Source: Planoprotostelium fungivorum
Taxonomy: Eukaryota; Evosea; Variosea; Cavosteliida; Cavosteliaceae
DNA length: 22,305 nucleotides
Assembly: GCA_003024175.1 (NCBI GenBank)
Contig: MDYQ01000417.1
Span: 1-22,305, forward strand
Direction of reading: 5' to 3'
Of the stretch, positions 4,620-22,007 are shown piece by piece. The notes under the pieces are model-generated. The model ran no database searches and was not told the origin of the DNA. It saw only the letters and a program-made list of their open reading frames with translations. Position 1 is the first letter of the stretch. The number at the start of each line of letters is the position of its first letter. Made by a program: the position numbers and the translations under genes.

Positions 4620-5045
4620 ACACACTGTTCTCCTCATTTTATTATCAACCAGATATTACCCAATAATTGTATGATATACAGTGGGAACCTATATATACAT
4701 CATCAGCTCATCGTATCATGTCACGTCCAACTCACCAAGAAACATCTGTCCGTATCTTCGTGTCCCATGAGTCAGACGATCGTGAAGAGTTTCTCTCACT
4801 GCCTCTACAACGAGCATCGCTTCCCACAACCCATCTTCTTCGAAAATGTTGCCAACTTGGCGCGGTCAGTCAACTGGTGTGATCATCAGAACGGTCTGAC
4901 CTCAAAAAAGACTCACCTTCATCTCTTCAAAGCCATCAGTGTCTGTGAATCCCTTCTTCTCCGTAATGGTGACAGCACAACGCCTCTTGAGCCTGAGATG
5001 TGGATGGTGATATCTGAGACTGTCACCTCTGTTTCATCGGGCGTC
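4620..5045 (-). CDS. Unresolved intron-rich gene fragment
   Basis: A minus-strand gene is likely but its structure is not resolved. The best-supported part joins a frame reading CAVTITEKKGF, DTDGFEEMK (ending near 4919) across a 44-nt intron (GTGAGTC to ACCAG) to LTDRAKLATFSKKMG. A further GTGAG site near 4735 opens an intron ending TATATAG near 4686, before a short hydrophobic C-terminal stretch. The joined segment faintly recalls SUI1/DENR-type domains, but I would not assign it. An intron-like segment here contains the TCGTTGTAGA word at 4804-4813. The start, the middle splice and the stop are all uncertain. Confidence 0.3.
4804..4813 (-). repeat. TCGTTGTAGA word in unresolved gene
   Basis: The sense copy sits in a stretch with an in-frame stop, GTGGGAAG to GAGGCAG, best read as a 29-nt intron of the unresolved minus-strand gene. 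Confidence 0.5.
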
Positions 5046-5465
5046 TACTTTCGTATCAGTATCGAAGTGGTGACAATCATCGCCCATAACTCGATCTCTC
5101 AAGAAAGATGATTACGTGAAATGTGGTGTGGCCTGAGCTCCTATGAGGTGCGGCTTATAAATGTTTATGATTGATTCCCTTGACCCCCTTCTTCTGTATA
5201 CGTATCAGCGAACATTGAAATTTAGAGTCAACTGTATGGCCTCTATTGATGTAGCTCTCACCTTCCGAGGGATATTCGTGTTGCTCGTTGCTGCTTCCAA
5301 GTGATTGGGAGAATGATACGCATACCCTGAATTGCATGTGAATTTCGTTGTAATACGCAAATTTTCATCAGTAAATCGAAATTGTTGCTTCAAACTGAAC
5401 TGATCAGCAGTGCTAAATCCACAAGAAGCTCAGAGAGAACACGTCAAGACCAATTTTTATCTTAG
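5046..5465. other. Intergenic or 5' exon region of the WD40 gene
   Basis: The large plus-strand gene needs at least one exon upstream of 5466, because its frame is closed by TAG at 5463-5465 and TTTTTATCTTAG looks like a 3' splice site. No convincing ATG-containing exon was found between 5110 and 5460. A minus-strand GGTGAG site near 5253 suggests another possible exon of a leftward gene. Nothing more can be supported. Confidence 0.3.
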
Positions 5466-8400
5466 ATAATCGCTGCACATGGTGTGAATCCTCGAGACTC
5501 ATTCCCCCTCGGTCTAATCTTACGATCAGGAACCCCAAGACGTTCCAGGCTTTCAAAAGTTCTTGAAAGCCTTCAAGTTGCCAGGAAATGTGTGTCTGAG
5601 CTGGATAAGAGGTTTACTGACAAGATCGTAGCGATCTCGTCAAGTTGCCATCAGGTTGATCAGAGTGGGCAAGGCTGAGAGTATAGATGCAATCATTATC
5701 GGTAAACGTATCAGCTTGAGAAGAGGAAAACGTTATTGCCTTGATTGCAACAAATCGTATCCACTCACAATCCTTCCTTACCGTCACAAATGCGAGCACG
5801 GGCCAAAAAAGGGCGAGATTCAACTCAAGGAGGAGGGCCGGATCCGGGAGGTAACACCTTTTTCAGCCGTGAGATCAGAAGATCTGAATGCCAACCAGGT
5901 TGTAGAGCATGTCCTTCGTCTGCTTTTCAAGAAAAAACAAACACGTGACCCCAAAACACCTAAACCCTCATACGTTCAGATAGAGGTCAATTGGAAGACT
6001 GCTCTGAAGAGGCTATCATCGTTCAAAGAGAAGTCTGGACTGGAATCTGGTTACCAGTGGTTCACCGATAGCGATGGCGAGTCCTTGTCCTCATTAGAAG
6101 ATGATTCTGCAGATCATCAAGAGGTGAGTGTTCGTGAGAAGGAGATGAGTTGACTCATACAGGAGCACCCATTCGACACATCAAGCAAAGAGCAAATCAC
6201 ACCCCGTGGAGAATCAGACGGAGATTATGAGATGCCAGTCGGGGATAACAGCGAGGCAGCCGAAAGACGAGCAGCCAAGAAGATGACCTCTTTCATCCCC
6301 TCTGAGAAGACGTCAAAAGAGAGGGATGACTCAAAGAAAGCTCGAAGAACCGTAGAAAAGCTGAAGGACAATGTCACTGAGTCACAAAAGAAGGTCAATA
6401 AGCCACAGAAGAGGGTATGCAAGCCTCAGAAGAATGTTGATGTCAACAATTCCAAGGAGGAGGTCAATGAGAACCAAGTAGAGTCTGTCAATGACGAAGA
6501 TGACGAGGTCTTAATGAGCCGAAAGGAAGTAGAAGAGCTGAGAAGGACAGCGATAGAAGCAGAGATACGAGCGAATGAAATGCAGAAGATGCTGGAAGAT
6601 CTACTGAGAGCCAACCAAGACAGAGATGCTCAAGCAAGAGAAGCACAGAAGAGACAAGACGAGAAGAGGGCAACACCACAGACAGAGTCAGCAGAGAGCG
6701 ACGAGGACAAGGACCTACCCTCCCCTCCAGAGGAGTCACCAAACAGCAGTCACTCTGTGGATTCCTCTGAAACACTCGAAGAAGACACCTCCTCTACTCT
6801 GGCAACCACCTGTACAACCACTGGATCTACTATGGAGAGATACTCAGAGGAGTTTCTCTGCGAGACTGAAGAACAGCTGGTGTCGATCCATTTCATCCGT
6901 CGTCCATCTTTGAGGGCGTGAGTAGAACGCTTAAGAGGGTGGCAGCTGAGATAACACAGGAAATTCTTTCGTGGATCTGACGGAACTCTTCGATTACACA
7001 AGGAATACGGAGCTATTGACGCGATGTGCCTCAACCCACATGTGAACTCTCTCATGCGTCATCTCTTCTCATCCGTCATCTCATTCATCATCTCATTCAT
7101 CATCTCATTCATCATCTCATTCATCATCTCATTCATCATCTGATCCATCACAGGGAGATCGATTGTATCGCTGTCATTACGATCACACCGTTCGATCTTG
7201 CACGGTTGAAAGTCCATTCACCGAATCTGTCGTTGCCGACCTCGAATGGATGGTCAGAGACATCGATGTCTGTAGCAAAGACGAGTGGATCGCCATTGCC
7301 ACTGAGTGAGTCCCTCTCCCAGCATCGTACTCATTTCTATCAGAGAGGGTGTCATCCGTTTGATGATGGTCCACCACCAGGAGACAATCACGAAATGCGC
7401 TCACGTGGGCTCAGTCCGGCACGTGCAGTTCGACCCCCAGTCCAACTTTTTGGTTTCTGTGGGGGACGACGGCTACCTCCGCGTCTGGAACGTCTTCAAC
7501 CGATTCAAACCGGTGATTCTCATTGCCTCCTGCATCCTCTGATGATCATCAGGTCGGACAGATTGCAGGAATTGTCCCAGAGGGAGAGGGAGACAATGTC
7601 TTCCCATCGATGATGTCCTGGCATCCTTCCTCCTCTCATCTGGCCTTACCCAGCAACAGAGGTGAGTCATTTGAATGGACACGAATGACACCATGCAGAC
7701 ATCATGATCGTGAGTAGTGCAGACTGGACGGTGGAAAGTCGTCTCTCTGGCCAACATTCGGGGGTGATGACGAAGACAAAGAGACGATCTCATCCTCCAC
7801 AGGCGGTGATCATTGCATCCTTCTCTCCCAACGGAATGTACCTGGCCACGGTGGACACCCAGGGAAGAGTCAATCTGTGGTGCTTCAGGGACCGAGCGGT
7901 CATTGATTCGTGAGGAGATGCACATTTCCATTCAACTGACCGCTTCAGTCGCAGTTTCACTGAGGTAATCATCGGTATGAACTGGCACCCAACAGAAAAT
8001 TGCCTCTTTATGGTGAGGGTATGGCAGCGTCATGACCTGATACGTGCAGACGAATATCGATGATGATGTGCATTACTGGACCAACTGTACACCCAATTCA
8101 CCTCACGAGGTCAGCCGAGCGGCCCCACCACATCAGAGAGAGGTTCGTAACCAGAAGATCGGACGAAGAGAGGCAGGAGAGGACATCACACCTCCCTCCA
8201 CCAAGACCCTCGAGAATGCCTCTGTGAAGAAGATCCAAATTGAACAGAGGTCAATCAGTTCCCCCATCAGTTCACTGATTCATTCCCCAATCAGAACAAG
8301 TCCAACGAAGCCATCAAAGGAGAGACCCATTGCTTCTCCGAAGGTATCCCCACACAAGAAGCTGTCAACAGTGCCCGCAAAGAAGCCATTCATCATACAA

Positions 8401-10089
8401 AGGACATCGGAGAAGAACAGGCTTCGATTTGAGGACTTGATTTACTTTGCTGCTGAGGAGCCAGAATACATGGGATTCGGGGTGAATCCATATTCAGAGT
8501 TACCAAACAGCGGTCACTCTGTGGGAAGGACATCAAGCAGTCAGAAGCCCAGTTCATCCAATTCATTCTCAAAGGAGAAGGTGAGCAGACGTCAGTGATG
8601 AGAAGAGTGATGATGATGACAGAGCTCATCGTTGTTGTGGTCACAGATCAATGTGGGAAAGAGAGAAGAATCTGATTCAGAAGACTCAATGGACGAAGAA
8701 GTGGCTAGAGAGAAGCTATTCCCAGAGCCATCGAATGTCTTTCACCCTCGAGTTCTCGTCAGAGACTTTCAACCCAGCCCTCACCCAGAACCTGAAAGAC
8801 CAAATGACCGAGGAGTCAACGAGGAGTCTGTTGCCCCTCCACATCAAGAAGAGCCTGTTGCCCTTCCACATCAAGAGGCCCTTCCACATCAAGAGGAGTC
8901 TGTTGCCCCTCCACATCAAGAAGAGCCTGTTGCCCCTCCACATCAAGAGGCCCTTCCACATCAAGAGGCCCTTCCACATCAAGAGGAGTCTGTTGCCCCT
9001 CCACATCAAGAGGCCCTTCCACATCAAGAGGAGTCTGTTGTCCCTCCACATCAAGAGGATGCACATCCCATCGGACGCATCGACGATCCAGACGTGCAAC
9101 TGGATCAAGTGGAAGAGGAACTGTCACAGACCTTCGAAGGTTCCATTGGTGAGGTCGTTTCATGCGGGAGAATTGACACTGGCAGATGACATCTCAGGAA
9201 GTGTCTCCAAGGTGATCAAGTACATTGCAGGGGGTCAAAAGGCATACATCGAATCCTACGGACAGAAGGACATCCACAAGATCATCAGGGTCTCCGTCGA
9301 AACACTGTTCCAGACCCTTCAAGAGATCCAGCAGACATCTAGAGTGCTGCTGAGCATCATCCAAGTGAACAACGACAAGCACGTGTACGACCTGAGAAGC
9401 CCCACGAAGCCCAAAGCTGTCGCCCACATTGGAGGATTCTTCTCTCAGGAGGACTCCAAATTCTATCAGGACCTGCGAAACTATGGACCCGTACACAATC
9501 TCAACAAGTTGACGGTGAAGGTGAGATCCATCCCTCGTCGCCCCATTTCTCATCTCCACAGGGCGACAGCAATGGCTGCAAAGAGATCCTCGCCAACATC
9601 AAGGCCAACTACCCCACTCCAAAAAGTCGCCTTCTCTCCACTTCTCACTTGTGATATCTCCTCTTTGACTGTTTGACTCACACTCTCACAGCATCTTGAT
9701 CTTCGAAGTGGAGATCACCACGGAGATTCCAATGAAGAGGAAGGAAGGAAGGCTCACCATCGCCGACCTCACTCCACCACCCAAGAAACTGATCAGCAAC
9801 TCGGCCTCTGCAAGGGAGAAGCGGGATCACAACAATTTGAGCGTGTCCATCTTCTATTACCGCTGGGCCGTCAATGATCTCCGCACCACGGTACCTCCTC
9901 AGGCCAACAACAACAGATCCCGTCACAATGGAAACGTTGTCTTCCGCTATTCACCGTTGACCCAAGTGGTGGCCTCCGGTATCGGTGAGTCAGCCCACCA
10001 AATGACCTCTCATCTCTACAGCGAACGCGAGAAGTGTCTCCTTTGGGGATATCAATGACACTCAGGGACGCGTGCAGGTGATGATGTGA
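5466..10089 (+). CDS. WD40 (Ctf4/AND-1-like) protein fused to a degenerate kinesin motor domain
   Basis: Exons: 5466-5611, 5655-6123, 6163-6917, 6960-7041, 7154-7305, 7344-7512, 7553-7661, 7699-7763, 7803-7909, 7949-8012, 8050-8580, 8647-9148, 9186-9520, 9562-9650, 9692-9984, 10022-10089. All phases agree, giving about 1311 residues plus an unfound start exon. Residues about 70-110 hold a Cys/His cluster (CLDC, HKC). About 205-430 is charged and probably coiled coil. About 430-706 is WD40, with blade ends GSDGTLRL, DGYLRVWN and QGRVNLW and Ctf4-like WHP motifs. Then come a basic Ser/Pro linker and PHQE repeats (about 940-1025). About 1040-1311 matches the kinesin motor: AYIESYGQ, LLSIIQVNN, VYDLR, STSHFILIFEVEI, GRLTIADL, FRYSPLTQV. 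The Walker A motif expected after YGQ is absent, switch I is reduced to STSH and switch II to DLTPP, so ATPase activity is unlikely. It may be a chromatin or cytoskeletal scaffold (inference). Confidence 0.7.
7078..7141 (+). repeat. 12-bp intronic minisatellite
   Basis: A TCATTCATCATC unit repeats about five times in tandem inside the 112-nt intron 7042-7153 of the WD40/kinesin-like gene. It accounts for that intron being almost three times the usual length. Confidence 0.9.
8824..9060 (+). repeat. Coding minisatellite (PHQE repeats)
   Basis: CCTCCACATCAAGAG-like units of 15 bp and TCTGTTGCC-type spacers are tandemly repeated in frame, encoding about eleven PHQE motifs in ALPHQE and ESVAPPHQE versions. 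High identity between units indicates recent expansion. All three forward frames stay open through it, a by-product of the repeat. Confidence 0.92.
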
Positions 10090-10357
10090 TGATGGAGAGG
10101 CCCTAAGTCGTGCAGGACCGTAGAGAGGTGACACCCGTGCGATCTCGCAAAGCGAAGCAGCTCGACAAACGCGCCCAGCCCCTCTCTCCCAAATCTGTTC
10201 ATAGAATATAAATAATGTGTATCGTGACGGTTCATGTGTTGGTGTGACATTTTTCAAATCAATTAAAATGGGAGTTGTTGAACCGGCTTGTATCGTCATT
10301 GATTACCAAAGGGAAGAGAGGATACACCAAGCGAGAAACGTGAAATCTATGGAATAG
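10090..10357. other. Intergenic region between two plus-strand genes
   Basis: This should hold the 3' end of the WD40/kinesin-like gene and the promoter of the PX gene. AATATAAATAATG near 10205 and AATTAAAATG near 10260 are AT-rich words that could serve 3' processing. No other gene is seen. Confidence 0.4.
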
Positions 10358-12550
10358 ATGAGTTCACAGATGGAGCCAGACGTTTGGTTCATTACCTTGA
10401 ACAATCAACTCGATTCACAAGTGAGTGACAGTGAGGACGTAGGTTCTAATTCAGATCAGATTGGGGCTGTCTTCACCGTCGATGCATCGGGAGATAATCA
10501 CTATGAATCGTGGTCTTGTCAACTCTCTCTGGAAGAGCTTCATCAATTTTGGGTCGAGGTGTCTCTCTAACGTCACATCTCCACTCAATCGACTTCAGAT
10601 GAGAAACTTTGGAGTCGTCAACAAACTTCCTTTACCTCACTGGCCCACCATTCCAGAAGTAACAGGGAAATCATTCAATAGCTTCTTTGGTGATCTCACC
10701 TGGTGTCCTGGAAAGGGATTGATGTGATTCAGGGAAGAAGAGATTCGAGGCCAATGAGAAGCAGAAGAAACAGATTGAAGATTTCTTCTTGGGAATATCA
10801 AGGAGCCCAGTGTTGAACAGCAGCTCTCCCATCAGAAAGAACTTTTCAGAGGCAGCGGAGAAAGAGAGGGAGAAAAAGAGGCGTCAAAAAGAGACGAGAG
10901 ATCGCCTCATCGGTTCGCAATCGGATCTGCACGGTGCGATCATCCTTCATCCAATCACCATCCACCCATCATCCGTCGCATCAGATCCCTCTCGTCCCAT
11001 CCAACAGAATAACCTGCGACTTTGTTTCATCCATCGAATGAGATTGAACGTAGACAGAGAGTCTGAAGGGACTGGATGAATCAGGCAACGAAGTCGATCT
11101 CTATCTCCTACCCAAAGTGCCTCAAGCCACCTTTCCCATCCCAACAGTCATCTATCTCGGCTCTCAACGAATCAACGAGGTGATCATCTCTTCATTCCCA
11201 CCCGATGATTCACCCTCACCTCCATTCTCCTGTCGTTCTACTGCAATCGTTGTAGAGGAGAGATGATGATGGGAACAGGTTCTCATGTTGCAGCCAATCT
11301 ACGAGCACATCACGGAGTGCATCACTCGTTTCTTGGCCGTACACGATCTCGCTTCCAGTCCTCAAGCCACTGAAGAGCAACTCATGTCCATCCTCGAATC
11401 TCAAGTGAGTTCATCTGTCTATGTCCACCTACATCTATGTCTGTCTATGTCTGTCTATGTCTACATACATCTATGTCTGTCTATGTCCACCTACATCTAT
11501 GTCTGTATACATCATCCTCTCTATTCACATTCCATCAGAGAGAGAGACTACTTCGAGACAGTGACACGCTGGAAGCAGAGAGGATCAGTCTGCACAAGGT
11601 GAGAGAAGAAGGGAGATGGAACTGAAGGGAAGAGGCCATGAGAGAGTGCGAAGAAGTGAAGAAGGAGGGGACACTCAGGAGATTCATCGCAGAATGCATC
11701 GTAGAAGTGGAGAGGGCCGTACGATGGGAGAGGAATTTGGACAGCATCGTGTTCATGAAGTTGGAACAAGTGAGATCATCCATTCACACGAACGATGATA
11801 GAGTAGATGACGAGGGGCACAGATCCACATGACTAGTCCACTGATGGGAAGGGAAGGAATGAAACACGCCAACTTGTCCGATCTGTACAGACAATACGAG
11901 ACGAAATCCAACGAACTGATGATCGCACTGGGCAGCACCGACATGGCAGAGATGCAGAAGGCCTCTTCTTCCATGAGAGATCTCATCCTTCAGATAGAGA
12001 GGGACGTCAACGTCTTACACGAGAAGAAGAACACGCTCTCCACCTTGGACACAAGGATCGTAGAATCACTCGATCGACTCCTCGGCACCCTCAAGAAGAA
12101 CGGTGTCTCTGTGGTATCCACAGACATACGACATCAAGTGAGACGTCTTCTCTGTTCGCATGGTTGACACCTCCAGTTGAAACTGATCGAGGGGAAATTG
12201 TTCCAATGCATCGATGGTTCTGCTGGAATGTGTGAGGGAACTGAACAGTCGGCAAAGAAGGACATCCTCAGACAAGTGAAGACCATGAGGAGACAACTGA
12301 GAGACATCCGCTCTCAATCGACAGAGGCAGACATGGATGAAGGTGAGGGATGTGTGGAGGGGGAGATCTGATGGAGGCAGCGGCACAGAAGCACGTGATG
12401 CATCAGATCGAAGACATCGAAGAGAACGTGGAGAACTTTCGACACAATTTTTGTAACCAATTTGGAATGAGGGATTCCACCATCGAGAGGGAGAAGGAAG
12501 AGAGTTCGAGGAGACACGAAAAGTACCAGGAGGACATGTTTCAGCTGTGA
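10358..12550 (+). CDS. PX-domain protein, sorting-nexin (SNX-BAR)-like
   Basis: Exons: 10358-10558, 10599-10689, 10733-10933, 10985-11023, 11085-11179, 11279-11404, 11539-11598, 11635-11769, 11823-12137, 12177-12342, 12381-12550, giving 532 residues with all phases consistent. The ATG at 10358 follows an in-frame TAG. Residues about 35-125 look like a Phox-homology domain: FTVDASG, a tryptophan strand (ESWSC), LEELHQFW, a proline-rich turn (LPHWPTIPEV), then FFGKKRFE and the C-terminal helix QKKQIEDFFLGI, SPVLNSS. PX domains bind phosphoinositides on endosomes. The usual RR(Y/F) after the first strands is absent (SCQLSLEEL), so PI3P binding may be weak. The rest is long, charged and helical, of a size fitting a BAR-type dimerisation region, which would make it a SNX-BAR-like membrane-remodelling protein (inference). 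Confidence 0.65.
11247..11256 (+). repeat. Intronic TCGTTGTAGA word
   Basis: Sense-orientation copy within the 99-nt intron 11180-11278 of the PX gene. Confidence 0.85.
11405..11538 (+). repeat. Intronic repeat (TCTATGTCTG / CCACCTACATC)
   Basis: This 134-nt intron of the PX gene, GTGAGT to CATCAG, consists largely of TCTGTCTATGTC and CACCTACATCTATG words in imperfect tandem order, explaining its length. Confidence 0.8.
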
Positions 12551-12642
12551 TCAGATACGAACCTTATGAGACAACGAATGCACGGAGAGAGAGAGAGCAG
12601 ATGAAGAGAGAACGAAGGGAGAGGGTATGAACAAGGAATGTA
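12551..12642. other. Tail-to-tail intergenic, 92 bp
   Basis: It lies between the TGA of the PX gene and the TAA of the minus-strand kinase gene, so both 3' ends must be processed within or across it. It is rich in GA repeats (GAGAGAGAGAG). Confidence 0.6.
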
Positions 12643-15600
12643 TTAAACCTTCTCGTTGATGGCGTGATCCCACGACGTCTTCGTGTCTTCATCGTTCTCG
12701 TAAGCCTGAATGTCGTCAATCTTCTCTTCTAAGCGATGATCTCTCACTTGCTGTAATTCCACCACAGTCTTCAACACTTGATTGCACTGCGGTCGTTCGG
12801 CTGGATCAGGTGCCCACATTTGATTGCTGTCACATCGTCGATATCACCTCATCCATCGTCTCATCGAGGATGACTCACCACAGGTTGGTGATCTCGATGG
12901 GGCAGGAAGGTGGGAGGGTGGGTCTCCTCCTGTTCTTGGCCTGCATCAAGATCTGGAATTCCTGCTTGATGTCTGGGAATTCATAGTAGGGTCTCTCGTA
13001 TTTCCCCGTGATGCATCTGTGCACACACTCCCAGAGGATCTGATTCGTTCAGCTCCTCTACAACGAGCCAACTCACCACTCCGATGGCGTAGACGTCACT
13101 CTTGACGGAATACTCCACCTCGTCCATCAATTCCTGTTCTATTCTCAGTCGTTGTAGATGGAGGGGAGTACTCACCGGTGCGGACCAAGCGGGTGTCGTT
13201 CTCAGTTTTCTGAGAGTGTTCTGGGATGCACTCGATTTGATTCGAGCCAGCCCGAAATCGCAGATCTGCGAGGGTCAACGCGATTCCACCTGCAATCCCA
13301 CCTTGATCTCCCAATTGTCCGTGACTAGGATGTTGAGTGACTTGAGATCTCTGTGCAATATGCACTCTGGGCGGTTGTGAAGGTAATCGATACCCCTCAT
13401 CTACATCTACGTCAGTTCTCCACGAGTTTTCCGTGAGATCTCACGATATCTCCGGTGATACTGAGGATTCTGTCCCAACCGATGGAATACACCTCCGAGT
13501 TCAAGACGTGAAAGAGAGAACCTCCCCCCGTCAATCTACAACGAGCCAATTCCCTCACCTCTCGATGCGTATTGCATGATGATGGCCAACTTTGGAGAAT
13601 CAACCGAATCGTACAGTTTGACGATGTATGGACACTCGTCGGTGTCTCTTAGAATCTCCGTCTCGTGTCTGAACTCTTCTACGTTCTTGGCATCGACAGA
13701 GTCCTTCATGACCTTCACGGCACATTCCTTTCCCTTGTAGATCCCCTTGTACACTTTACCAAAGGCTCCCTGTCCGATCTTTCCTGTGACTTGCACCATT
13801 CCATTGCAGATCACCTTCCCTTGTTTGATCTGTCTCCCTCTCAGTTCTCTTCATGTATCTCTATCCAACAGATGTTCTATCGTCATCCGTGATGAATAGA
13901 GATGTAGATCATCAGCTGATGCACAGAGAGAAAGGTGAAGGATGGATAGAGATGTAGATCATCAGCTGATGCACAGAGAGAAAGGTGAAGGATGGATAGA
14001 GATGTAGATCATCAGCTGATGTACAGAGAGAGAGGTGAAGGATGAATTCGTCCTCACTTTTGATCTCATTCCTGCGGGGGATGCACCCAGTTGGTTCTTC
14101 ATCCACGGATTCTTCACCGTTCCGTGGATTCGATTCTTTTTCCCGGAACTCTCCTCCTCCACTTCGAATCTCTTCCTCAACACCACCGTGTCCTGACGAC
14201 ATCAGTCTCGTTGTAGATCGAAAATAAAATGGAATAATCACGTTGCTCTTGAATCCCAACTCGGCCAGTGTCTTCTTTGGATCGAGTCGATCGGGTGACT
14301 CGGGCAGTGACAGTTCAAATCTTCTCTGTTTCATTCGAATGAGAACTCTCACACGAAGCAAAGATCATTCACCGAAACGTCACCGGTGATATTGACGTTA
14401 CCCTTCTTCGCAATCTTCTCCAAGACCTATTTTTGGCGATCAATCATCCGTCTACAACGATGTAGATACCTCCTCCATGGTGGTGTTGATGGAGAAGATG
14501 GCGGATGTCTTCTTCGGGCAATATAATTCCTGGAAATCTTCGATTTCAACTTGAAGTCCAATGTTCCCTCCCTCGTCCATTCGCTGCTCGATCGGTTTTC
14601 TACTGAGGAAGATGAAATCCTATTTCACGTCAATCTACAACGAGACAATTTCATCTCACCCTCGTCTTCGCTCCGTACGATCCTAAAGTCCGGCTCTGTG
14701 ACGAGTCAGTGACATTTCGATGAAATTTCATCACATTCTCCATGGGAGTGAGGGTACCCCCAGTGTCGCGTATCAACTTTAAAGATTGTGGTGCATTCAT
14801 CGCTGCCAGAGATCCCCTTGTATGATGTCAAGAGAAGTGTGAGGAACAGTTCTTACATTCTGGAGCGAGGGGAGGTTTCCAATAGATTGGGTTGGTGTTG
14901 TTTCGTGTGGATCTCATTCCACCAGAACAATTGATATTTCGATTCATCCCTATACCATCGTCATTCCTATTCATCATTCTACAAAGAAGAGAGAAGGAGA
15001 GAAGATGAGAGAGAAGGAGAGAAGAAAGAGAAGATGATAGGAGAGAAGAGAGGATGAAAGAAGATGAAAGAAGATGAAGATGAAAGAAGAGAGAAGGAGA
15101 GAGAAGAGAAGAAAGAGAAGAAGAGAGAGAAGAAAGAGAAGAAGAGAGAGAAGAGAGAGAAGAAAGAGAAGAGAGACACCTGAGGGGTATTCCAACGGAA
15201 GCCTTCCTGGCGACCTTATGCAACACTTCGATGATGGGCTCATCGGGAAAGAAATTAGCCACCACCTATCCCCATCACCCTTCTTCCCTCTCTCTCCTCA
15301 CCTGCTTGGCACTCTGAAGCAATTCATAACAATCAATGATGATGACGACGGGAATCTGAATTCGGATCTTCCTCCTCAGAGACACGTTGCTCTGTCTACG
15401 TCATTCACATCCTCTCCCTCCACTCACTCTGTCCTTCAGTTGTAGATCAGACAAGGTCTCGTCTTTCGGCAGGATCCTCTCGTGCTCACCCTCCACCCAA
15501 ACGAGATCAAAATTCGTCTCACCGTATTGGTAATTCGAGGCGATGATGTACACGTTGGCCTGCGTGGAGGTCACGTGACCTACCCCGTGTAGAGGGGTTC

Positions 15601-16524
15601 ACCTTTAAGGCGACTTTGTGTAGCATGTCTGAGACGGTGATGTAAGGGTGGAGTCGCAGCGTGACTGTTCTGGCAGAGAGTAATTCTTCGTAGTCATCGA
15701 TGGTGATGACGAGACGGATCATGCCGGAGGAGGCAGGTGATGTGGGGAAGGCATCGACTCTCTCGGTGGAGCGGATGTCCATGCGATCGGGTGTGGAGGA
15801 TGCTTCTCGGGTGAGATCGTCTTTGGAGGTCCTCCGTGGAGAGGTCATCTTCTCTCTGGAATGGAGATCAGATGATTCGAATGAGATGGAGGCTGGATGA
15901 AGAGACGTGTATGAGGAACGGACCTTTCGGTATCGCCCAACAGATCAGCGGAACTGGCTCTCAATTTGACTCGATCGGGTGTGAACTTCCTCCAAGTGTT
16001 TGTGGGAGAAGAGCCTAGAGGACTCGTTCCTGTGGGGATTTTTCTCGTCTGTTGGACTCAGTGGAATGTCGAGCGATCGATGAGAATGTGAGAATGGATG
16101 GTGTCCTCACGCCGTCTGGAGACATTGGTATGTGCACGGCGGGAGACGGTGGTGGTACTCCATAATCATTCAGTGATGTTGCCGACGATTCCTGTGCGGG
16201 TGTGAGAATGACATCTGGTGTGGAAAGGCGTGGCTCGCGACTCTCCAACGATCCTCAGGAAGAATATGACTCACCGGTGGAGAATGTATGAGGGCGTCTG
16301 TGTCTATGTTTGTGTTCGTCGAAGAGCTACGGCTGAGAGAACTTCCCGTGGATTGGCTGGGCGTCATAGCCATCCCTTCTATCAGACTGTGCAGCTGCTT
16401 CGCCGTCTACTCATACCCCGGTCAGTATGTGTCACACAATAGACGAAGAATACACAAAGGAGAATCGATAGAGGATGGTCACCTCATCTGGAGACTCTTT
16501 AGACAGTGCCGTGGGGGTCTGCAT
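12643..16524 (-). CDS. TKL-type protein kinase with three N-terminal FERM-F0/ubiquitin-like modules
   Basis: Twenty-one minus-strand exons from ATG at 16524 to TAA at 12643 join in phase to about 872 residues. Residues 1-185 are Ser/Pro/Thr-rich. Three beta-grasp modules follow, like the talin/kindlin F0 fold: about 188-280 (IRLVITIDDYEEL to ILPKDETLSDL), about 280-420 (IDCYELLQSAK to SRTLGSYGAKTRDFIFLSRK, with an Asn-rich insert) and about 430-525 (LQVEIEDFQEL to DPKKTLAELG, NDTVVLRKRF). The kinase domain spans about 572-835: GQGAFG 579-584, Lys599 (AVK), HRDLKSLN with Asp694, ICDFG with Asp712, WSAPE near 740, SDVYAIGVILWE. All catalytic residues are present, so it should be active. HRDLKSLN and the APE-SDVY context point to the TKL group. 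The modules suggest recruitment to membrane or adhesion complexes (inference). Five of its introns carry the TCGTTGTAGA word, and one holds a 3 x 50-bp repeat. Confidence 0.88.
13057..14643 (-). repeat. Six intronic TCGTTGTAGA / TCTACAACGA copies in the kinase gene
   Basis: Sense TCGTTGTAGA is at 13057-13066, 13535-13544, 14451-14460 and 14634-14643; sense TCTACAACGA is at 13149-13158 and 14208-14217. Each lies in a separate intron of 37 to 49 nt. Around 13535 and 14634 the match extends to 22 of 23 bases (AATTG, G or T, CTCGTTGTAGATTGACG), so these two introns are homologous. (The kinase entry's count of five is superseded by this list of six.). Confidence 0.9.
13891..14040. repeat. Three tandem 50-bp repeats in a kinase intron
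   Basis: Three adjacent copies, 13891-13940, 13941-13990 and 13991-14040, differ at only a few positions. Each contains the palindrome CATCAGCTGATG. They make up most of the 228-nt intron 14057-13830 that separates the beta-grasp region from the kinase domain. Confidence 0.95.
14985..15178. repeat. Homopurine (GA-rich) tract in a kinase intron
   Basis: The plus strand is almost uninterrupted A and G (AGAGAAGGAGAGAAG-type) for about 190 bases, so the intron 15179-14979 is an extended polypyrimidine tract in the transcript. It is low complexity; apparent Leu/Ser- or Lys/Arg/Glu-rich open frames in it are artefacts. Confidence 0.9.
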
Positions 16525-16690
16525 GTGATGTGTGGAAGAAAATGTCAAATTTACTTGCGGGACGGAATATTCTGATGAGATAAACCCTATCACAGACTCT
16601 CTTGATTATCCTCTTCTATCCACCTTCAGTTGATTCACATCGATAACCTTTGGATGACATGTAGATGTTATCACAGAGAGAGACATTTAT
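16525..16690. other. Intergenic between two minus-strand genes
   Basis: It holds the 3' end of the Zn2Cys6-PAS gene and the presumed promoter and 5' UTR of the kinase gene. No other feature is seen. Confidence 0.5.
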
Positions 16691-17903
16691 TTAAGGCACA
16701 GGGATCTCCTCCACCACGCCGTGGAACGCCTCTTCCTCGTCCTTCTCGGGTACAAAGTGAATGATGAACAACAGAGGGAGGTCGAACACATCTCTCTTGG
16801 TGGTATAGCATAGACTCCCGTTGACGTAATCGTTCGTGCCATAGATTTTGAAACCTCCCTTCATCGTGTGTCTGCCTCCTTCATCATCACATCACATGCG
16901 ACGTCTTCACCTGTTGAGTCCATTCAAGATCACAGCAGGCATATGTTTCTGACATCCCACAACACATTCGGGTGATAAGATCTGAAAGAGGGCGTAGTCT
17001 TGCACCTTCGTAGGGGTCGGTGCCTCCCATTTGGTCATCTGCTTTGTTTAGAACATGAGAGGACGCACATCATCACCCTTCGCATGGCCCGGTTGACGTG
17101 AAGGATGATCCCCTTGCCTCCAAAGACAACCACGGGGAATTCACTCATGTCGGCTGCGATCTGATGCATGATCACCATCTTTCATGATCATCACGTCTTC
17201 ACCTGTGCATCTCGCTTCACTTGTTCATAGTGAAGGAACATGTCTCTCTTTTGTTCGGTTGTGAGCATGCATAATAGTTTTGATGTCTTCTCTTGATACC
17301 ATGTGATGGCGTTGACCACTTGGGCTCCACCTCGTGGCTGATTTGAACGAGAGTACCATTTCGATGCAAAATCTACATCATACAGATCGAATGAGGGAGG
17401 TACGGCTGTAGGGTCAAACGTGGAGGCAAAGTCTGGGGCATTGGATGAGGGAGAAGGGGGTATCCAGTTCTTCAAGATGAGTTCTGAGGGTAAGACGGGT
17501 AGAGAGGATGTGCCTTCCAGCGATCAGAACATGATCTCAACTGATGCGAATTGATGATACCTTCTGGGAGAGGCGGAAAGGGAAGAATATCGTGGACGTT
17601 GAAATCATCTACACAATCGATCTGCAACCGAAGATCAGTGACGACCAGAAGTAGATCTCACCAAGTCTAAGAAGTTGGGATCAGGATATGTATGGGGCGT
17701 TGGCGCCTTCTTTGATTTCCTCTTCTCCCTCTGACGTTCTATACAATCTAATCCTTTGCTGACGCATCTTCTACACGGCTTCTCTGTTTCAATCACACTT
17801 CACATCATGCTTTACGAAGGGCACCCTTGTCACAAGATATATGACTATCGTAGCATGCTATGCACGCTTTGGCGGGTCTTCTCGAAGTAATCGGTCTACT
17901 CAT
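16691..17903 (-). CDS. Zn(II)2Cys6 zinc-cluster transcription factor with PAS domain (AcuK/ERT1-like)
   Basis: Exons (minus): 17903-17825, 17783-17662, 17621-17561, 17513-17203, 17160-17077, 17038-16911, 16871-16691, giving 321 residues, all phases consistent. After splicing, residues 14-40 form a perfect binuclear zinc cluster, C-x2-C-x6-C-x5-C-x2-C-x6-C (ACIACYDSHISCD, then PCRRCVSKGLDC), followed by basic REKRKSKK. The His in DSHISCD and the PCxRC context match the fungal AcuK/ERT1 gluconeogenesis-regulator family (known there). About 185-305 is PAS-like (FPVVVFGGKGIILHVNRAM, then GGFKIYGTNDYVNGSL and PLLFIIHFVPE). The protein is much shorter than the fungal ones, which usually exceed 500 residues. 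It should act in the nucleus as a sequence-specific regulator, perhaps metabolite-sensing. AATAAA overlaps the stop region and may serve polyadenylation. It is divergent from the sterol reductase gene. Confidence 0.8.
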
Positions 17904-18463
17904 CAGATCTGTCTCGAAAATTCCATCCCAGATCTGAACACCACCGATCCGATGATGGAGCAAAACAAAGGGACTTTCGAGTCATATTCAAATCGGTTGA
18001 TACAGGTCAGACTTTCCCTCTTCAGTATTCTCCTGTTCTCTCGACAAGGAAATGCTCGACTGCAGTGCGAATTTCAATCGAGACAAGTAGACACTGCTGG
18101 ATGACAATCGGCTTCATTATATAGACATAACGCAGAACTTCAGGTCCTCATCTTCCTGCGAGGGAGTCGGCTGTAAGCGAAACATGCACGTGACGCAACC
18201 GCTTTCAATTTACCCTCGGCCGCGGAGATTTGTTGTCAAAGGGCGTGACCTCCTCATCCTGCATCCTCTCCTCTTTCTCTCGCTCGAGATGGTTGCTGTA
18301 TAGAAGAGAGAGAAGGCATACAGTTCGTTCTATAGAAAAAGATGCGAAGCAGGTGCCAGAGAGAGCGTCGGAGATGAGCCGATCACGTGACTAACGGCAA
18401 AGGTGCTCTCTTTTGAGCTCAGTGCCGACGGCATTCTCTCGGGGACCACACACGAACAGCAGC
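17904..18463. promoter_or_regulatory. Shared divergent promoter region
   Basis: These 560 bp separate the start codons of the divergently transcribed Zn2Cys6-PAS and sterol reductase genes, so both promoters must lie here. Visible words include CACGTGACG near 18187 and CGGCCGCGGAG near 18217, the second being a GC-rich CGG/CCG-type sequence of the kind zinc-cluster proteins often bind, and CACGTGAC near 18383. No coding region is supported. Regulatory roles are inference. Confidence 0.5.
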
Positions 18464-20153
18464 ATGACCAAGCAGAAGGACGCTAAGGCCGCTAAGTGAG
18501 TAGATCGGAGATGTCTAAAGCTCAACCTATGCAGGTGGACTGAGGCTAAAGTCGATGAGACACCATTCGGTCTGCCCCACTGGGTGCACACCGTCTTTGT
18601 GCCCCTCTTTATCATGACTTCCACCTTCTTCACGGCCCCTACTGTGTGGATTATCTGCACTGCCTTCAAGGGGTAAGACATTTTGCATTTTGCATCCGAT
18701 ACTCACGCCTCCTTAGAGATCTGGTTGAGTTTGTGCAGAACCTGCACAAGGTCCCTCTCCTGTGGCCCTCACCTACCTTCGAGGCCGCTAAAATCATCGG
18801 ATGGTTCGCCGCCTTGAACGTTGCCCTTCTCCTCTTGGTTCCCTCCAAGAGACTCCTGGGTCCCATCACACCCGAAGGTGATTCTTCATTTTACAAATCA
18901 CCTCTCAACCGAATCTCACTCTCTATCCAGGAAACCAGCCCGTCTACCGTCTGAACGGTGTCTCTTGCTTCCTGTTGAACCACGTCATCCTCTACATTGG
19001 TGGTGCCGTCTTCAAGCTCTACAACTTGGGCATCGTCTACGACCACCTCGGTTCCATCTTGGTCACCCTCTCTTACTTTGCCCTCCTGGGTTGCTTCCTC
19101 CTCTACGTCAAGGGTGAATCGATCCCTCTCGTTCCAGAATGGAGATTGATTCTGTGCAGGAAGACTCGCCCCCACCAACAAGGATGCCAGTGTCACTGGT
19201 AACCCCATCATGGACTACTACTGGGGAGTCGAGCTCCACCCCGCCGTATTGGGTGTCTCCCTCAAGCAGATTGCCAACTGCCGTCTCGGCATGATGTGCT
19301 GGTCTGTCATGCTCTGGTCTTACCTGTTCAAGCAGGTCCGTGTCATCTCCATCTCATGTGACTATCATTCTGATGACGATGCAGGCTGAGCTGTACGGAT
19401 CCGTCTCCAACTCGATGATCCTCTCTGTCGTCCTCCAGTCCGTGTACTGCCTCAAGTTCTTCCACTGGGAGGGTGGCTACTTCCACACCCTCGACATCAT
19501 GCACGACAGGTCCGTCTACAACGCACCATCACCGTCTCACGTTTCACAGATTCGGTTACTACATCTTCTGGGGTGTGATGGTCTGGATCCCCTCTGTCTA
19601 CACTCTGACTGGAATGTGGTTGGTGGAGCACCCCATCGAGCTGTCCCCCGTCTACTTCTACTCCGTCCTCGCCTTCGGTCTCTTCTCCATCTACGTCAAC
19701 TACGAGGCCGACGCCCAGAGAACTGTGAGTGTCTCGTTGTAGACAGTCCCGCTCACCGCCTCAGCTCTGCCGTGCCACCCAGGGCAAGTGCAAGATCTGG
19801 GGCAAGGACCCCGAGATGATTACGGCCACTTACTACACCGCTGAGGGTACCCCCAGAACTAACCTTCTCCTCGTCTCTGGATGGTGGGCCGTGGCCAGAC
19901 ACTTCCACTACGTCCCCGAGTTAGCCCTCTCTCTCGCTTGGTCCCTCCCTGCCCAGTACGGAGGCTTCATCCCCTACTTCTACTTGGTGAGAGGAAGGAG
20001 AAGATGAAGAGTGACGCCGTGTAGGTCTACTTGACTGTCCTCTTGGTGCACAGATCAGGAAGAGACGAGCTGAGATGCAGTGACAAGTACGGAAAGGACT
20101 GGGAGAAGTACAAGGCTCGCGTTCCCTACCGCATGGTCCCCTTCCTCTACTAG
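18464..20153 (+). CDS. DHCR7: 7-dehydrocholesterol reductase (sterol delta-7 reductase)
   Basis: Exons: 18464-18495, 18535-18672, 18717-18877, 18931-19113, 19160-19335, 19385-19509, 19550-19724, 19765-19986, 20025-20153, giving 446 residues, close to plant (about 430) and animal (475) enzymes. It reduces the C7-C8 double bond of sterols with NADPH at the ER membrane, the last step to cholesterol-type sterols. Family signatures are clear: [43 protein letters not shown], the late [12 protein letters not shown] and the terminal PYRMVPFLY. Several hydrophobic segments fit a polytopic membrane protein. The short charged N-terminus ([11 protein letters not shown]) comes from a tiny first exon. It is C-rich at third positions (GTC, CTC, TAC, AAG), suggesting high expression. 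Introns at 19510 and 19725 carry the TCTACAACG word in opposite orientations. Confidence 0.95.
19515..19523 (+). repeat. Intronic TCTACAACG word
   Basis: Sense TCTACAACG(C) copy, 9 of 10 to the consensus, in the 40-nt intron 19510-19549 of the sterol reductase gene. Confidence 0.75.
19734..19743 (+). repeat. Intronic TCGTTGTAGA word
   Basis: Sense TCGTTGTAGA copy within GTCTCGTTGTAGAC in the 40-nt intron 19725-19764 of the sterol reductase gene. Confidence 0.85.
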
Positions 20154-20274
20154 ATCCATCCATTCGAATAGATCTTAGATTTCATTCTTTGTCTCTTCTT
20201 GTCAGAGGAAGAGCAGACGAAAGAGAAAAGTGCAGAACACAATCGATCTTCTATAGAGTGATTGTAGATGTTGT
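20154..20274. other. Tail-to-tail intergenic, 121 bp
   Basis: It lies between the reductase TAG and the TAA of the minus-strand glycosidase-like gene. No terminator or polyadenylation consensus stands out. Confidence 0.5.
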
Positions 20275-22007
20275 TTAATTGCCCCACACTTGGTGAAACT
20301 TCTTGGTGATGCCTCCGGCGATGACGAGATAAGCGTCCTTGTTCATCTTGTACCCATCCATGTCCAACGTCACGAAGGGAGGGCTCACTGGGGCATTCTC
20401 TCTCGTGGCAACCACCTGAAGACTGTCACACATTCCCTCGTGATAAGACGCTGCAACTCGCTCACCTTGAATTGGGCCGTACCTGCGAACGTGTCAGCGA
20501 AGAAATCCATCATCCGTGTCCATCACCCTCATCGACCTCGTCGAACATGGCCAGGAAGAGGAAGAGAGGTTTGTTCGCAATGTGCACCTCAGCCTGCGCC
20601 TTGATGAACTTACCACCGTCCCTGGGTACCTGGTTCAACTTGGCGTCTTGGGGTGGATTGTGGTTGACGTGCATGTTCCTCCAGCTGAAGCCGGGCCACA
20701 GGACCGGCGAGTATTCGACACCGATCGAACGAGCGTAGCTGACATCCACATCAGTGACTCATGCGTCTCGTCATCTCACTCCATGTCGTCCTTCAAGAGT
20801 TGAGGCCAGCTGCCCTGGAAGCCACCTTCATCAAAGGCACCGACCATCCAAGGTTGAATGACGTGGGGGATCTGAATGGAGGTCGGGGGATGGAGAGGAG
20901 AGGAAGCTCACCTTGTAGACTTGAGCGTAGGGGTCGTTGTTCTTCACGTCTTCAAACCTCCAGATCCAGTTTACACCTGCGATGAGGAAAGTCTTCGGTT
21001 TGAAATAGTTGAGGGCGTTCGTGGCCTGCTGGGGGGTCATACGCTCCTGCTGCCGTCAGAAGATGTCTCGTTGTAGACGGTCGAAATCGCGTGGTACCTT
21101 GAAGAAACCCCATATCTCTAAGACGGGGAGATTGTTGTGGTGGAGGTAGGCGGGGGAGTCTGTGATGTGGAGGGTGTTGGTGAGGTACTCCCAATCTTTC
21201 GTCAGGAAGTCTTGGATCTGGTCACCTGCGGCACCGGACATGTCGTATTCCACGGCGAAGACTCTTCCGTATTTCTCGGCCGCCGCTCTGACCTTTTGCA
21301 AGATCTGAGAGGAGTCAGATGATGAGAGGAGTCAGATGATGAGAGGAGGATGAGGGTTAAGAGGATGAAGGAGTGAAAGAGAAGGTGAGAGGTGATGACG
21401 GTGGACCTGTGCGGTATCTGGGTTGTTCTGATAGCCAAAGAACCTCTGGACGAACACACCGTCGATGTTGTACTTCTTCATCCACTTGAAGTGGGTGTCA
21501 ATGACACCGGTACAGAAGGAACTGTACAGTTTGAGGGGCGTTCCGTCGGCTCTCGATAATTCTACCACACATCAGCAGCTATCAGCCAACATACGATAAG
21601 GAGATGAGATTTGATGAGAACGAGAGCTCACGAGTCGGGCACAGGCATTCACTGGGATATTCGGACACATCGGGGAAGAGATCGACTCGGACTGAACAAG
21701 GTAAATCACTCAGATGTTTTAATAAGAAGATGGATCTCACTCGTCTGGTTGTTGGGAGGTTGACTCGAAGATTCGGTCCAATGCCAATATGTGGGCCATC
21801 CTGCATCTCTCAATCTACGGAAATCAGAACATGATCTCACCTGATCCATCTCCGGGACATCTGAACCAAGCCTGGTAACCATAGATAGTTTTACCCGCTA
21901 TGGTCTTAGAGTTGACTGCAGCGCTCACGATGGCAACTGATCTGTTCAGAACAATGGACGATCGAATTTGTCTCACCGTACAGGAGCAAAAGTAACAAGA
22001 CTCTCAT
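20275..22007 (-). CDS. Secreted glycoside hydrolase family 71/99-like protein
   Basis: Exons (minus): 22007-21977, 21936-21841, 21800-21741, 21691-21632, 21561-21407, 21304-21098, 21046-20912, 20871-20780, 20738-20527, 20482-20466, 20415-20275, giving 401 residues in phase. A signal peptide is evident (MRVLLLLLLYVAIVSA). The mature part matches the GH71/99-like family (bacterial xylosidase/arabinosidase-type annotations): GYQAWFRCPGDGSG, LFPDVSEYP, LYSSFCTGVIDTHFKWMKKYNIDGVFVQRF (two segments, about 94-123), YGRVFAVEYDMSG, VNWIWRF, WMVGAFDEGGF, SPVLWPGFSW and AMFDEVDEGTAQFK (about 342-354). Family members are TIM-barrel glycosidases; the substrate cannot be read from the sequence. It likely acts outside the cell or in the endolysosomal lumen, for example on bacterial or fungal glycans (inference). 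Exon 10 is only 17 nt. One intron (21097-21047) carries the TCTACAACGA word. Confidence 0.88.
21068..21077 (-). repeat. Intronic TCTACAACGA word (sense)
   Basis: The plus strand reads GTCTCGTTGTAGAC at 21066-21079. In the transcript the orientation is TCTACAACGA, in the 51-nt intron 21097-21047. Confidence 0.85.

Follow-up and report, generated by a model that had tools for sequence, protein, structure and literature searches.

Short introns are usually seen as almost free of sequence demands besides the splice signals. Among the closest described systems, sites of classical transcription factors are preferentially found in promoters and in first introns, the motifs of intron-mediated enhancement in plants are biased to introns near the start, and nematode introns carry periodic An/Tn clusters, i.e. 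periodic runs of A/T. DNA uptake sequences and Chi are bacterial and are not restricted to introns; we know of no companion vocabulary, of the kind described below, that belongs to them.

The window analysed here, a stretch of 22,305 nucleotides (contig C386, positions 1–22305) whose left end carries telomere-like CCCTAAA repeats, contains a short word, TCGTTGTAGA, which recurs within introns in both orientations. Among the papers listed for the exact word, for intronic motifs and for introners, no title or opening part of an abstract describes the word, which is not proof of novelty.

Copies of the word in the window

The initial annotation reported eleven copies of the word, all of which were recovered at the same places, ten being exact and one mismatched (19515). 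Ten of the copies had been assigned to introns, and seven to the sense and four to the antisense orientation; our own gene finder places ten of the eleven in GT-AG introns of 37–99 nt, the exception being the copy at 4804, and gives the same seven to four split relative to the predicted genes. The copies, a neighbouring intron and a near match are:

4804–4813, minus strand: word copy outside predicted introns, bordering an exon whose prediction is doubtful
10015–10024, minus strand: form TCGCTGTAGA with one mismatch, which overlaps the acceptor in intron 9985–10021; probably chance
11247–11256, plus strand: word copy, sense, in intron 11180–11278
13057–13066, minus strand: word copy, sense, in intron 13040–13076 of the kinase gene
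13149–13158, plus strand: word copy, antisense, in intron 13134–13175 of the kinase gene
13535–13544, minus strand: word copy, sense, in intron 13522–13558 of the kinase gene
14208–14217, plus strand: word copy, antisense, in intron 14193–14241
14451–14460, minus strand: word copy, sense, in intron 14427–14469; near-palindrome TCTACATCGTTGTAGA
14634–14643, minus strand: word copy, sense, in intron 14620–14659
14696–14734, minus strand: intron with the companion word GAAATTTC, adjoining word-bearing introns
19515–19524, minus strand: word copy with G ahead of the nine-base core, antisense, in intron 19510–19549 of the ERG24-like gene
19734–19743, plus strand: word copy, sense, in intron 19725–19764 of the ERG24-like gene
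21068–21077, plus strand: word copy, antisense, in intron 21047–21097

When up to one mismatch is allowed, the window has 14 matches, compared with a mean of 1.1 in shuffled sequence (14 or more in 0 of 100 shuffles). The word-bearing introns of two genes are independently supported by protein alignments: the spliced protein of the ERG24-like gene (18464–20153) aligns to PDB 4QUV across both of its word-bearing introns, and the spliced product of the kinase gene (12643–13799) matches positions 2–256 of the 258 in PF07714. Scanning the window for Rfam families and tRNA genes returned no match.

Other parts of the initial description are revised by the present analysis. The word is real, but its conserved part is the 9-bp CGTTGTAGA and not the ten bases first proposed. 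Complete GTCTCGTTGTAGAC, to which 'several' copies were said to extend, is present at two of the eleven only (19734 and 21068). The match of 22 out of 23 bases between two introns (13522 and 14620) is real, with no longer similarity seen around it.

A sharp core, read on either strand

Throughout the 36,859,091-base assembly, TCGTTGTAGA occurs 5,774 times (2,853 forward and 2,921 reverse), against 150 occurrences of a control, the mirror word, which has the same letters in backward order. The core CGTTGTAGA, with any preceding base, has 12,082 copies, against 562 for its mirror. All nine of its positions are nearly invariant, whilst the base in front is degenerate (counts over the initial 134 kb: T 92, A 32, G 11 and C 4). 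This sharpness is evident genome-wide near GTGAG donors, where there are 741 perfect sense cores (control 3); allowing transitions at the CpG raises the count to 789 (control 17), and allowing transitions at five other positions gives 826 (control 48). The remaining 27 single-mismatch variants of the 10-mer number 6,410 genome-wide against 3,637 for the control, an excess which is real but small. A 16-bp palindrome, TCTACAACGTTGTAGA, is found at 681 places (control 0); in viral contigs it is present in 13 stretches, at one place apiece, which we take as chance.

Statements on introns, here and below, are made on predicted gene models. The finder was self-trained on sequence and employs GT-AG introns and a codon-phase model; the interior of an intron does not enter its scoring. 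Most of its training loci had been selected for the word, and the 14-nt acceptor window could learn copies that lie at the acceptor, a type to which none of the ten intronic copies in the window belongs. The predicted introns are short (median 43 nt); some of those in L032, a gene of low complexity, are doubtful. Orientation was scored in 1,030 predicted introns from 65 loci, many of them chosen for the word; a second, unselected set comprises 14 stretches at arbitrary coordinates.

The 1,030 introns contain 76 sense copies, a further 37 sense copies at the acceptor and 63 antisense copies; for the donor-proximal (GTGAG) class genome-wide, 741 sense copies compare with 595 antisense, the controls being 3 and 0, respectively. 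The core has weak flank preferences, TGNCT on the left and TGGA on the right. Among non-palindromic copies, the right flank reads T43 G36 G41 A42 of 60 in sense and T32 G32 G27 A25 of 44 in antisense, i.e. the preference is the same on either gene strand; the left flank reads T40 G36 C34 T48 of 60 and T20 G23 C22 T27 of 44, i.e. the same letters, more weakly in antisense. Since both orientations occur, and the flanks track the word and not the gene strand, the motif behaves as a site in double-stranded DNA.

Introns, exons and intergenic DNA

The excess in introns implied by the initial annotation is borne out in the 14 arbitrary stretches, where the core has a density of 1.2 per kb in introns (24 copies in 20.0 kb), 0.33 in intergenic DNA (6 in 18.5 kb) and 0.36 in exons (25 in 69.6 kb); the mirror word has 0 copies in the same stretches. 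Of the 25 exonic copies, 15 lie in a single Ser/Thr-repeat gene, L071, where TCTACAACG encodes Ser-Thr-Thr (its alternative reading is part of Phe-Tyr-Asn), and omission of this locus lowers the exonic density to about 0.16 per kb. In the loci around the first 75 exact places on contig C1 (75 of 100 places listed, with 5,774 genome-wide), the 9-mer has 111 copies, 83 being intronic, 27 exonic and 1 intergenic, with some of the calls in L032 doubtful.

The intergenic copies of the word, fewer per kb than those in introns, lie upstream of a predicted start in six of seven cases. When the word is pooled with its companions GAAATTTC and TGACGTCA, 11 of 12 intergenic copies are found in the 400 bp ahead of a predicted start, and this class accounts for 18.5 of 36.6 kb. 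Corresponding upstream counts are 5 of 7 for GGCGGG and 2 of 6 for TCACGTGA.

Distribution among genes and regions

Copies of the word are distributed unequally among genes. In loci taken without selection, 19 of 323 introns of 40 genes have it, a distribution matched or exceeded in unevenness by 14 of 2,000 permutations. The richest genes carry it in up to about half of their introns (8 of 19 in L013, 4 of 7 in L037), whilst some long genes have it in few introns or in none (1 of 37 introns in L078, 0 of 17 in L076). The order of introns from 5′ to 3′, where W denotes the word and o a companion, is ....W..W.o.W.oWWoWWW.ooWo in L067 and ...WWoWW.ooW. in L065; L073:1 has companion words in five introns and the core word in none.

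Early introns are the poorer ones. When the introns of complete genes are divided into fifths from start to end, the word is present in 5/92, 6/76, 18/78, 17/76 and 9/70, respectively, that is, in 11 of 168 introns of the first two fifths vs 44 of 224 of the last three. The trend is milder in the 13 word-rich genes with a start, where 5 of 34 introns within 600 bp, 11 of 39 at 600–1,200 bp and 41 of 124 beyond carry the word.

Differences are also seen between regions, statements on which rest on the start of C1 and on the examined DNA stretches. The first 70 kb of C1 contain no TCGTTGTAGA, and four copies with a different first base. On contig C4, 0 of 70 introns have the word at 63–87 kb, compared with three stretches at 0–54 kb where 9 to 11 introns out of 39 apiece have it; rich and poor stretches alike were picked from listed places and show a contrast, not a frequency. 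The C4 regions are alike in GC (0.47–0.48 vs 0.49–0.50), GC3 and intron density.

Companion words

Genes with at least two word introns (word-rich genes) also carry other short words in introns without the word. GAAATTTC is present in 27 of 260 such introns of word-rich genes and 2 of 303 in word-poor genes (p 6e-8, uncorrected), and TGACGTCA, which we take to resemble a CRE site, in 27 of 260 and 7 of 303 (p 6e-5, uncorrected); both were first noticed in overlapping data, and some loci in the rich set had been selected because they carry the word. GGCGGGAA, presumably similar to an E2F site, is present in 9 of 260 and 2 of 303 (p 0.03, uncorrected). GGCGGG, which forms part of GGCGGGAA, is found 16 times in rich and 2 times in poor genes (p 2e-4, uncorrected, in a comparison that covered 1,028 six-letter words), and is the more weakly supported as a companion word. 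By the same comparison of non-word introns, TCACGTGA, ATTCGAAT, ATCGCGAT and CATCATCA show no excess in rich genes over poor ones.

The companions mostly occupy different introns from the word (GAAATTTC is in 5 and TGACGTCA in 3 of 92 word introns). GGCGGG takes the place of the left half, as TGGCGGGTTGTAGA, in six of eight cases of GGGTTGTAGA. Other words are commoner in word-poor than in word-rich genes, i.e. TCATCTCA (12 vs 0), AAGAGAG (12 vs 0) and CATCTC (48 vs 18); hundreds of words were tested, and these differences may be due to chance.

In an intron common to the paralogues L035 and L069, which are 88% identical, one copy reads ATCTACAACGCTGTAGAC and the other ATGTACAACGTTGTAGAC. A different half of the palindrome has been lost in each, with one perfect core kept in each. 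This single pair gives a hint of selection.

The uneven spread over genes and regions, the rarity in early introns and the presence of companions in other introns of the same genes are new with the present analysis.

A candidate protein-binding site in gene bodies

We consider it probable that the word is a double-stranded DNA binding site for a sequence-specific protein, within a small intronic vocabulary. As would be the case for a binding site, the motif is sharp and independent of strand, its flanks included (the left one being weaker in antisense), and it co-occurs with companions in the same genes. The full site would be about 18 bp in length, TGNCT-CGTTGTAGA-TGGA, or would be formed by two half-sites that overlap within the palindrome TCTACAACGTTGTAGA; it would belong to a small set with GAAATTTC, TGACGTCA and, more weakly, GGCGGG. 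In a subset of genes, such sites may be located in introns, which are free of coding constraint, and more often in those after the first few; in one class the putative site would double as the splice acceptor (TTGTAG/A). From the patterns described above we infer protein binding, upkeep by selection, and a regulatory or chromatin-related role in gene bodies. Against the binding-site reading is the number of one-mismatch 9-mers in the sampled predicted introns (28 vs 6 for the mirror), although this is partly explained: nine of the 28 are the partner half of a palindrome with a perfect other half, three overlap the donor and two are the GGCGGG form. Also against it are the long genes with few copies or none, the five companion introns of L073:1 alongside no core word, and the rarity of GAAATTTC and TGACGTCA in the word introns themselves.

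Three features, namely the few copies in early introns, the lower density in intergenic DNA (0.33 vs 1.2 per kb) and the regional pattern, argue against an ordinary enhancer, and favour either the marking or licensing of gene bodies or a drive linked to recombination. Regional variation, such as the absence from all 70 introns at 63–87 kb of C4, also argues against regulation gene by gene. It is a possibility, put forward tentatively, that the introns of a subset of genes and chromosome regions each carry one of a few strand-blind words as a gene-body code. Several proteins would land on these words and thereby mark or license the gene body, with the marking perhaps concerned with chromatin, elongation or recombination, and the richest genes would be labelled in about half of their introns past the first few. 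If so, introns would together form an address label distributed along the gene, distinct from both promoter and splice signal.

Selfish drive, in which a word that promotes recombination or repair spreads by biased conversion, in the manner of DNA uptake sequences or Chi in bacteria, and accumulates where it does little harm, namely in introns, would account for the sharp core, the use of either strand, the high copy number and the regional differences; it would, however, have to produce several unrelated companions in the same genes but mostly in different introns, as well as fewer copies in early introns, and intergenic DNA, which is likewise free of coding constraint, is poorer in the word. 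We regard it as rather unlikely. Some 12,000 copies, the sampled ones being mostly intronic, and their companions point to intron sequence being selected or driven on grounds other than splicing, and offer a definite example, open to testing, of why so many introns are kept in a compact genome.

RNA-level readings

The observations most suggestive of a splicing element, by which the word or a surrounding hairpin would be recognised in the pre-mRNA, come from the acceptor class. In 37 of the 113 intronic sense copies, the TAG of the word is itself the intron acceptor (TTGTAG/A), and these copies are preceded by CTGAC, which is branch-site-like and at the place of a branch site. The class loses the flank preference after the first T, as expected, since the flank there is coding. 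At the C1 loci, a gap of 13 nt or more separates the acceptor from the end of all 42 other sense copies, and from that of 30 of 34 antisense copies. Recognition in RNA is nonetheless difficult to reconcile with the antisense copies (63 in the sampled introns and 595 donor-proximal ones genome-wide), which agree with the initial view that the word is not a normal strand-specific splice signal, or with flank preferences that track the word rather than the transcript. In the arbitrary stretches, the genes that have four or more introns carry the word in 19 of 323. A structural signal in introns had also been proposed; an intronic signal is supported but the hairpin is not, as eight of the ten word introns in the window, when folded as RNA, were no more stable than shuffled sequences (z −1.21 to +0.67). 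An RNA-level element is therefore quite improbable, and the data support action of the word as a double-stranded DNA motif, not as a hairpin.

Introners

The initial annotation raised an introner-like family that inserts in either orientation; the word would then be the terminal-repeat remnant of short mobile elements that made the introns. Concentration in introns, both orientations, palindromes, several word families and clustering in some genes are all consistent with such an origin, as is the density of introns per kb of exon, which is 6.95 in word-rich vs 5.63 in word-poor genes (6.29 vs 5.37 in unselected loci), although selection of genes with at least two word introns itself favours higher intron density. 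Non-word introns alone amount to 4.64 per kb of exon in rich genes vs 5.63 in poor ones, so word introns have not simply been added.

The sequences around the word do not resemble the remains of a common element. Similarity is absent beyond about 5 bp around a core that has decayed little: in a comparison of 136 copies, flanks are identical at close to the chance level outside roughly ±5 bp, and the upper tail shows a slight excess, of which the top pairs listed trace to paralogue or tandem repeats and to palindromic copies. No longer introner-type element was found around the word. Word introns are also ordinary in length, phase, donor use and flanking exon length. Median length is 43 nt in word introns, in other introns of rich genes and in introns of poor genes alike; phases are 68/39/38 in word introns, compared with 194/106/63 and 135/99/74 in the comparison sets; flanking exons measure 126/135 vs 126/125; and exon bases −3 to −1 and +1, +2 are broadly similar, except for the A after the acceptor class.

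Two word-intron positions (three pairs) are common to paralogues whose intron lacks the word, with the same codon and phase in alignments of 33–36% identity, although parallel gain is possible. Among aligned paralogues, 4 of 53 word introns and 21 of 240 plain introns are at shared positions, leaving 49 of 53 and 219 of 240 unshared; a DNA search with L013 for recent duplicates returned only L013 itself. Flanks near chance, ordinary introns and shared positions together tell against the introner proposal, which we consider very doubtful, and they caution that a word common to many introns need not imply introners.

Generation of the word by preferred codons or low-complexity repeats, for which the Ser-Thr-Thr and Phe-Tyr-Asn readings of TCTACAACG and the share of L071 in the exonic copies could be cited, can hardly be correct and is refuted as the main cause by the intron excess, as it covers the exonic copies alone and leaves 24 copies in 20 kb of introns of the same stretches.

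Comparison with known systems

The word shares features with several described systems. It resembles intronic transcription-factor sites and enhancers in being a short, sharp and strand-independent motif with palindromic dimer forms and companion motifs; it differs in that it is found mainly in gene-body introns, and is scarcer in early introns and in intergenic DNA. With intron-mediated enhancement it has in common an intronic motif possibly tied to gene expression, but here early introns are the poorer ones (11/168 vs 44/224). The An/Tn clusters are likewise a sequence feature that a subset of genes carries in many introns, whereas the present feature consists of sharp, discrete words. An invariant core of 8–10 bp, present in thousands of copies on either strand, recalls DNA uptake sequences and Chi. 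Finally, introners, as portrayed in PMC9860276 and PMC4457414, resemble the present case in comprising thousands of introns that share sequence, in either orientation and with inverted-repeat character; in contrast, what is common to the introns described here is only a 9-bp core with weak flanks, in introns that are otherwise ordinary.

Intronic words and palindromes

Among the companion words, the other short intron words that share genes with the core word, GAAATTTC is tied to word-rich genes, occurring in introns of L012, L026, L043 and L044 (loci of the same assembly) and in the window at 14696-14734, among others; in several introns a second GAAAT or ATTTC lies approximately 3 bases from it. 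Another short word, TGACGTCA, is concentrated in introns (L013, L026, L027, L036, L048 and others). Several of its copies read GTGAGTGA[TGACGTCA], or [TGACGTCA]TCAG at the acceptor, and GATGACGTCACGTGACGTCAC is common to two introns of different loci, L013 and L048.

In intron interiors of the first 134 kb fetched, 71 palindromes of 10 bp were present, compared with 20 in shuffles, and 28 of 12 bp, compared with 6; the word's own palindrome accounts for 10 of each set. Further intron palindromes are GTCACGTGAC, CATTCGAATG and ATCGCGAT, for the cores of which no tie to word-rich genes was found.

Distribution between genes and regions

Word-rich and word-poor DNA alternate between neighbours (contig C4 63-87 kb and contig C1 10-19 kb versus contig C4 0-54 kb), although these stretches resemble one another in base composition and in how their genes are built. 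One gene (L073:1-3997) carries companion words in 5 of its 10 introns and the core word in none of the 10. The Ser/Thr-rich repeat coding region of L071 (6168-8802) contains 15 exonic copies, which are present because the codons of Ser-Thr-Thr spell the word.

Features of the window

Within 1-2857, contig end: telomere-like CCCTAAA repeats (from sequence)
12643-14800, minus strand: two predicted genes, a kinase and its neighbour (gene finder)

Between the CCCTAAA repeats and approximately 2.8 kb, the gene finder predicted no genes. The word is carried by 6 of the 13 introns of the two genes at 12643-14800, the second of which gives a weak, below-cut-off ubiquitin-like match. These predictions may represent one gene, RAF-like on our own reading, that the gene finder split in two.
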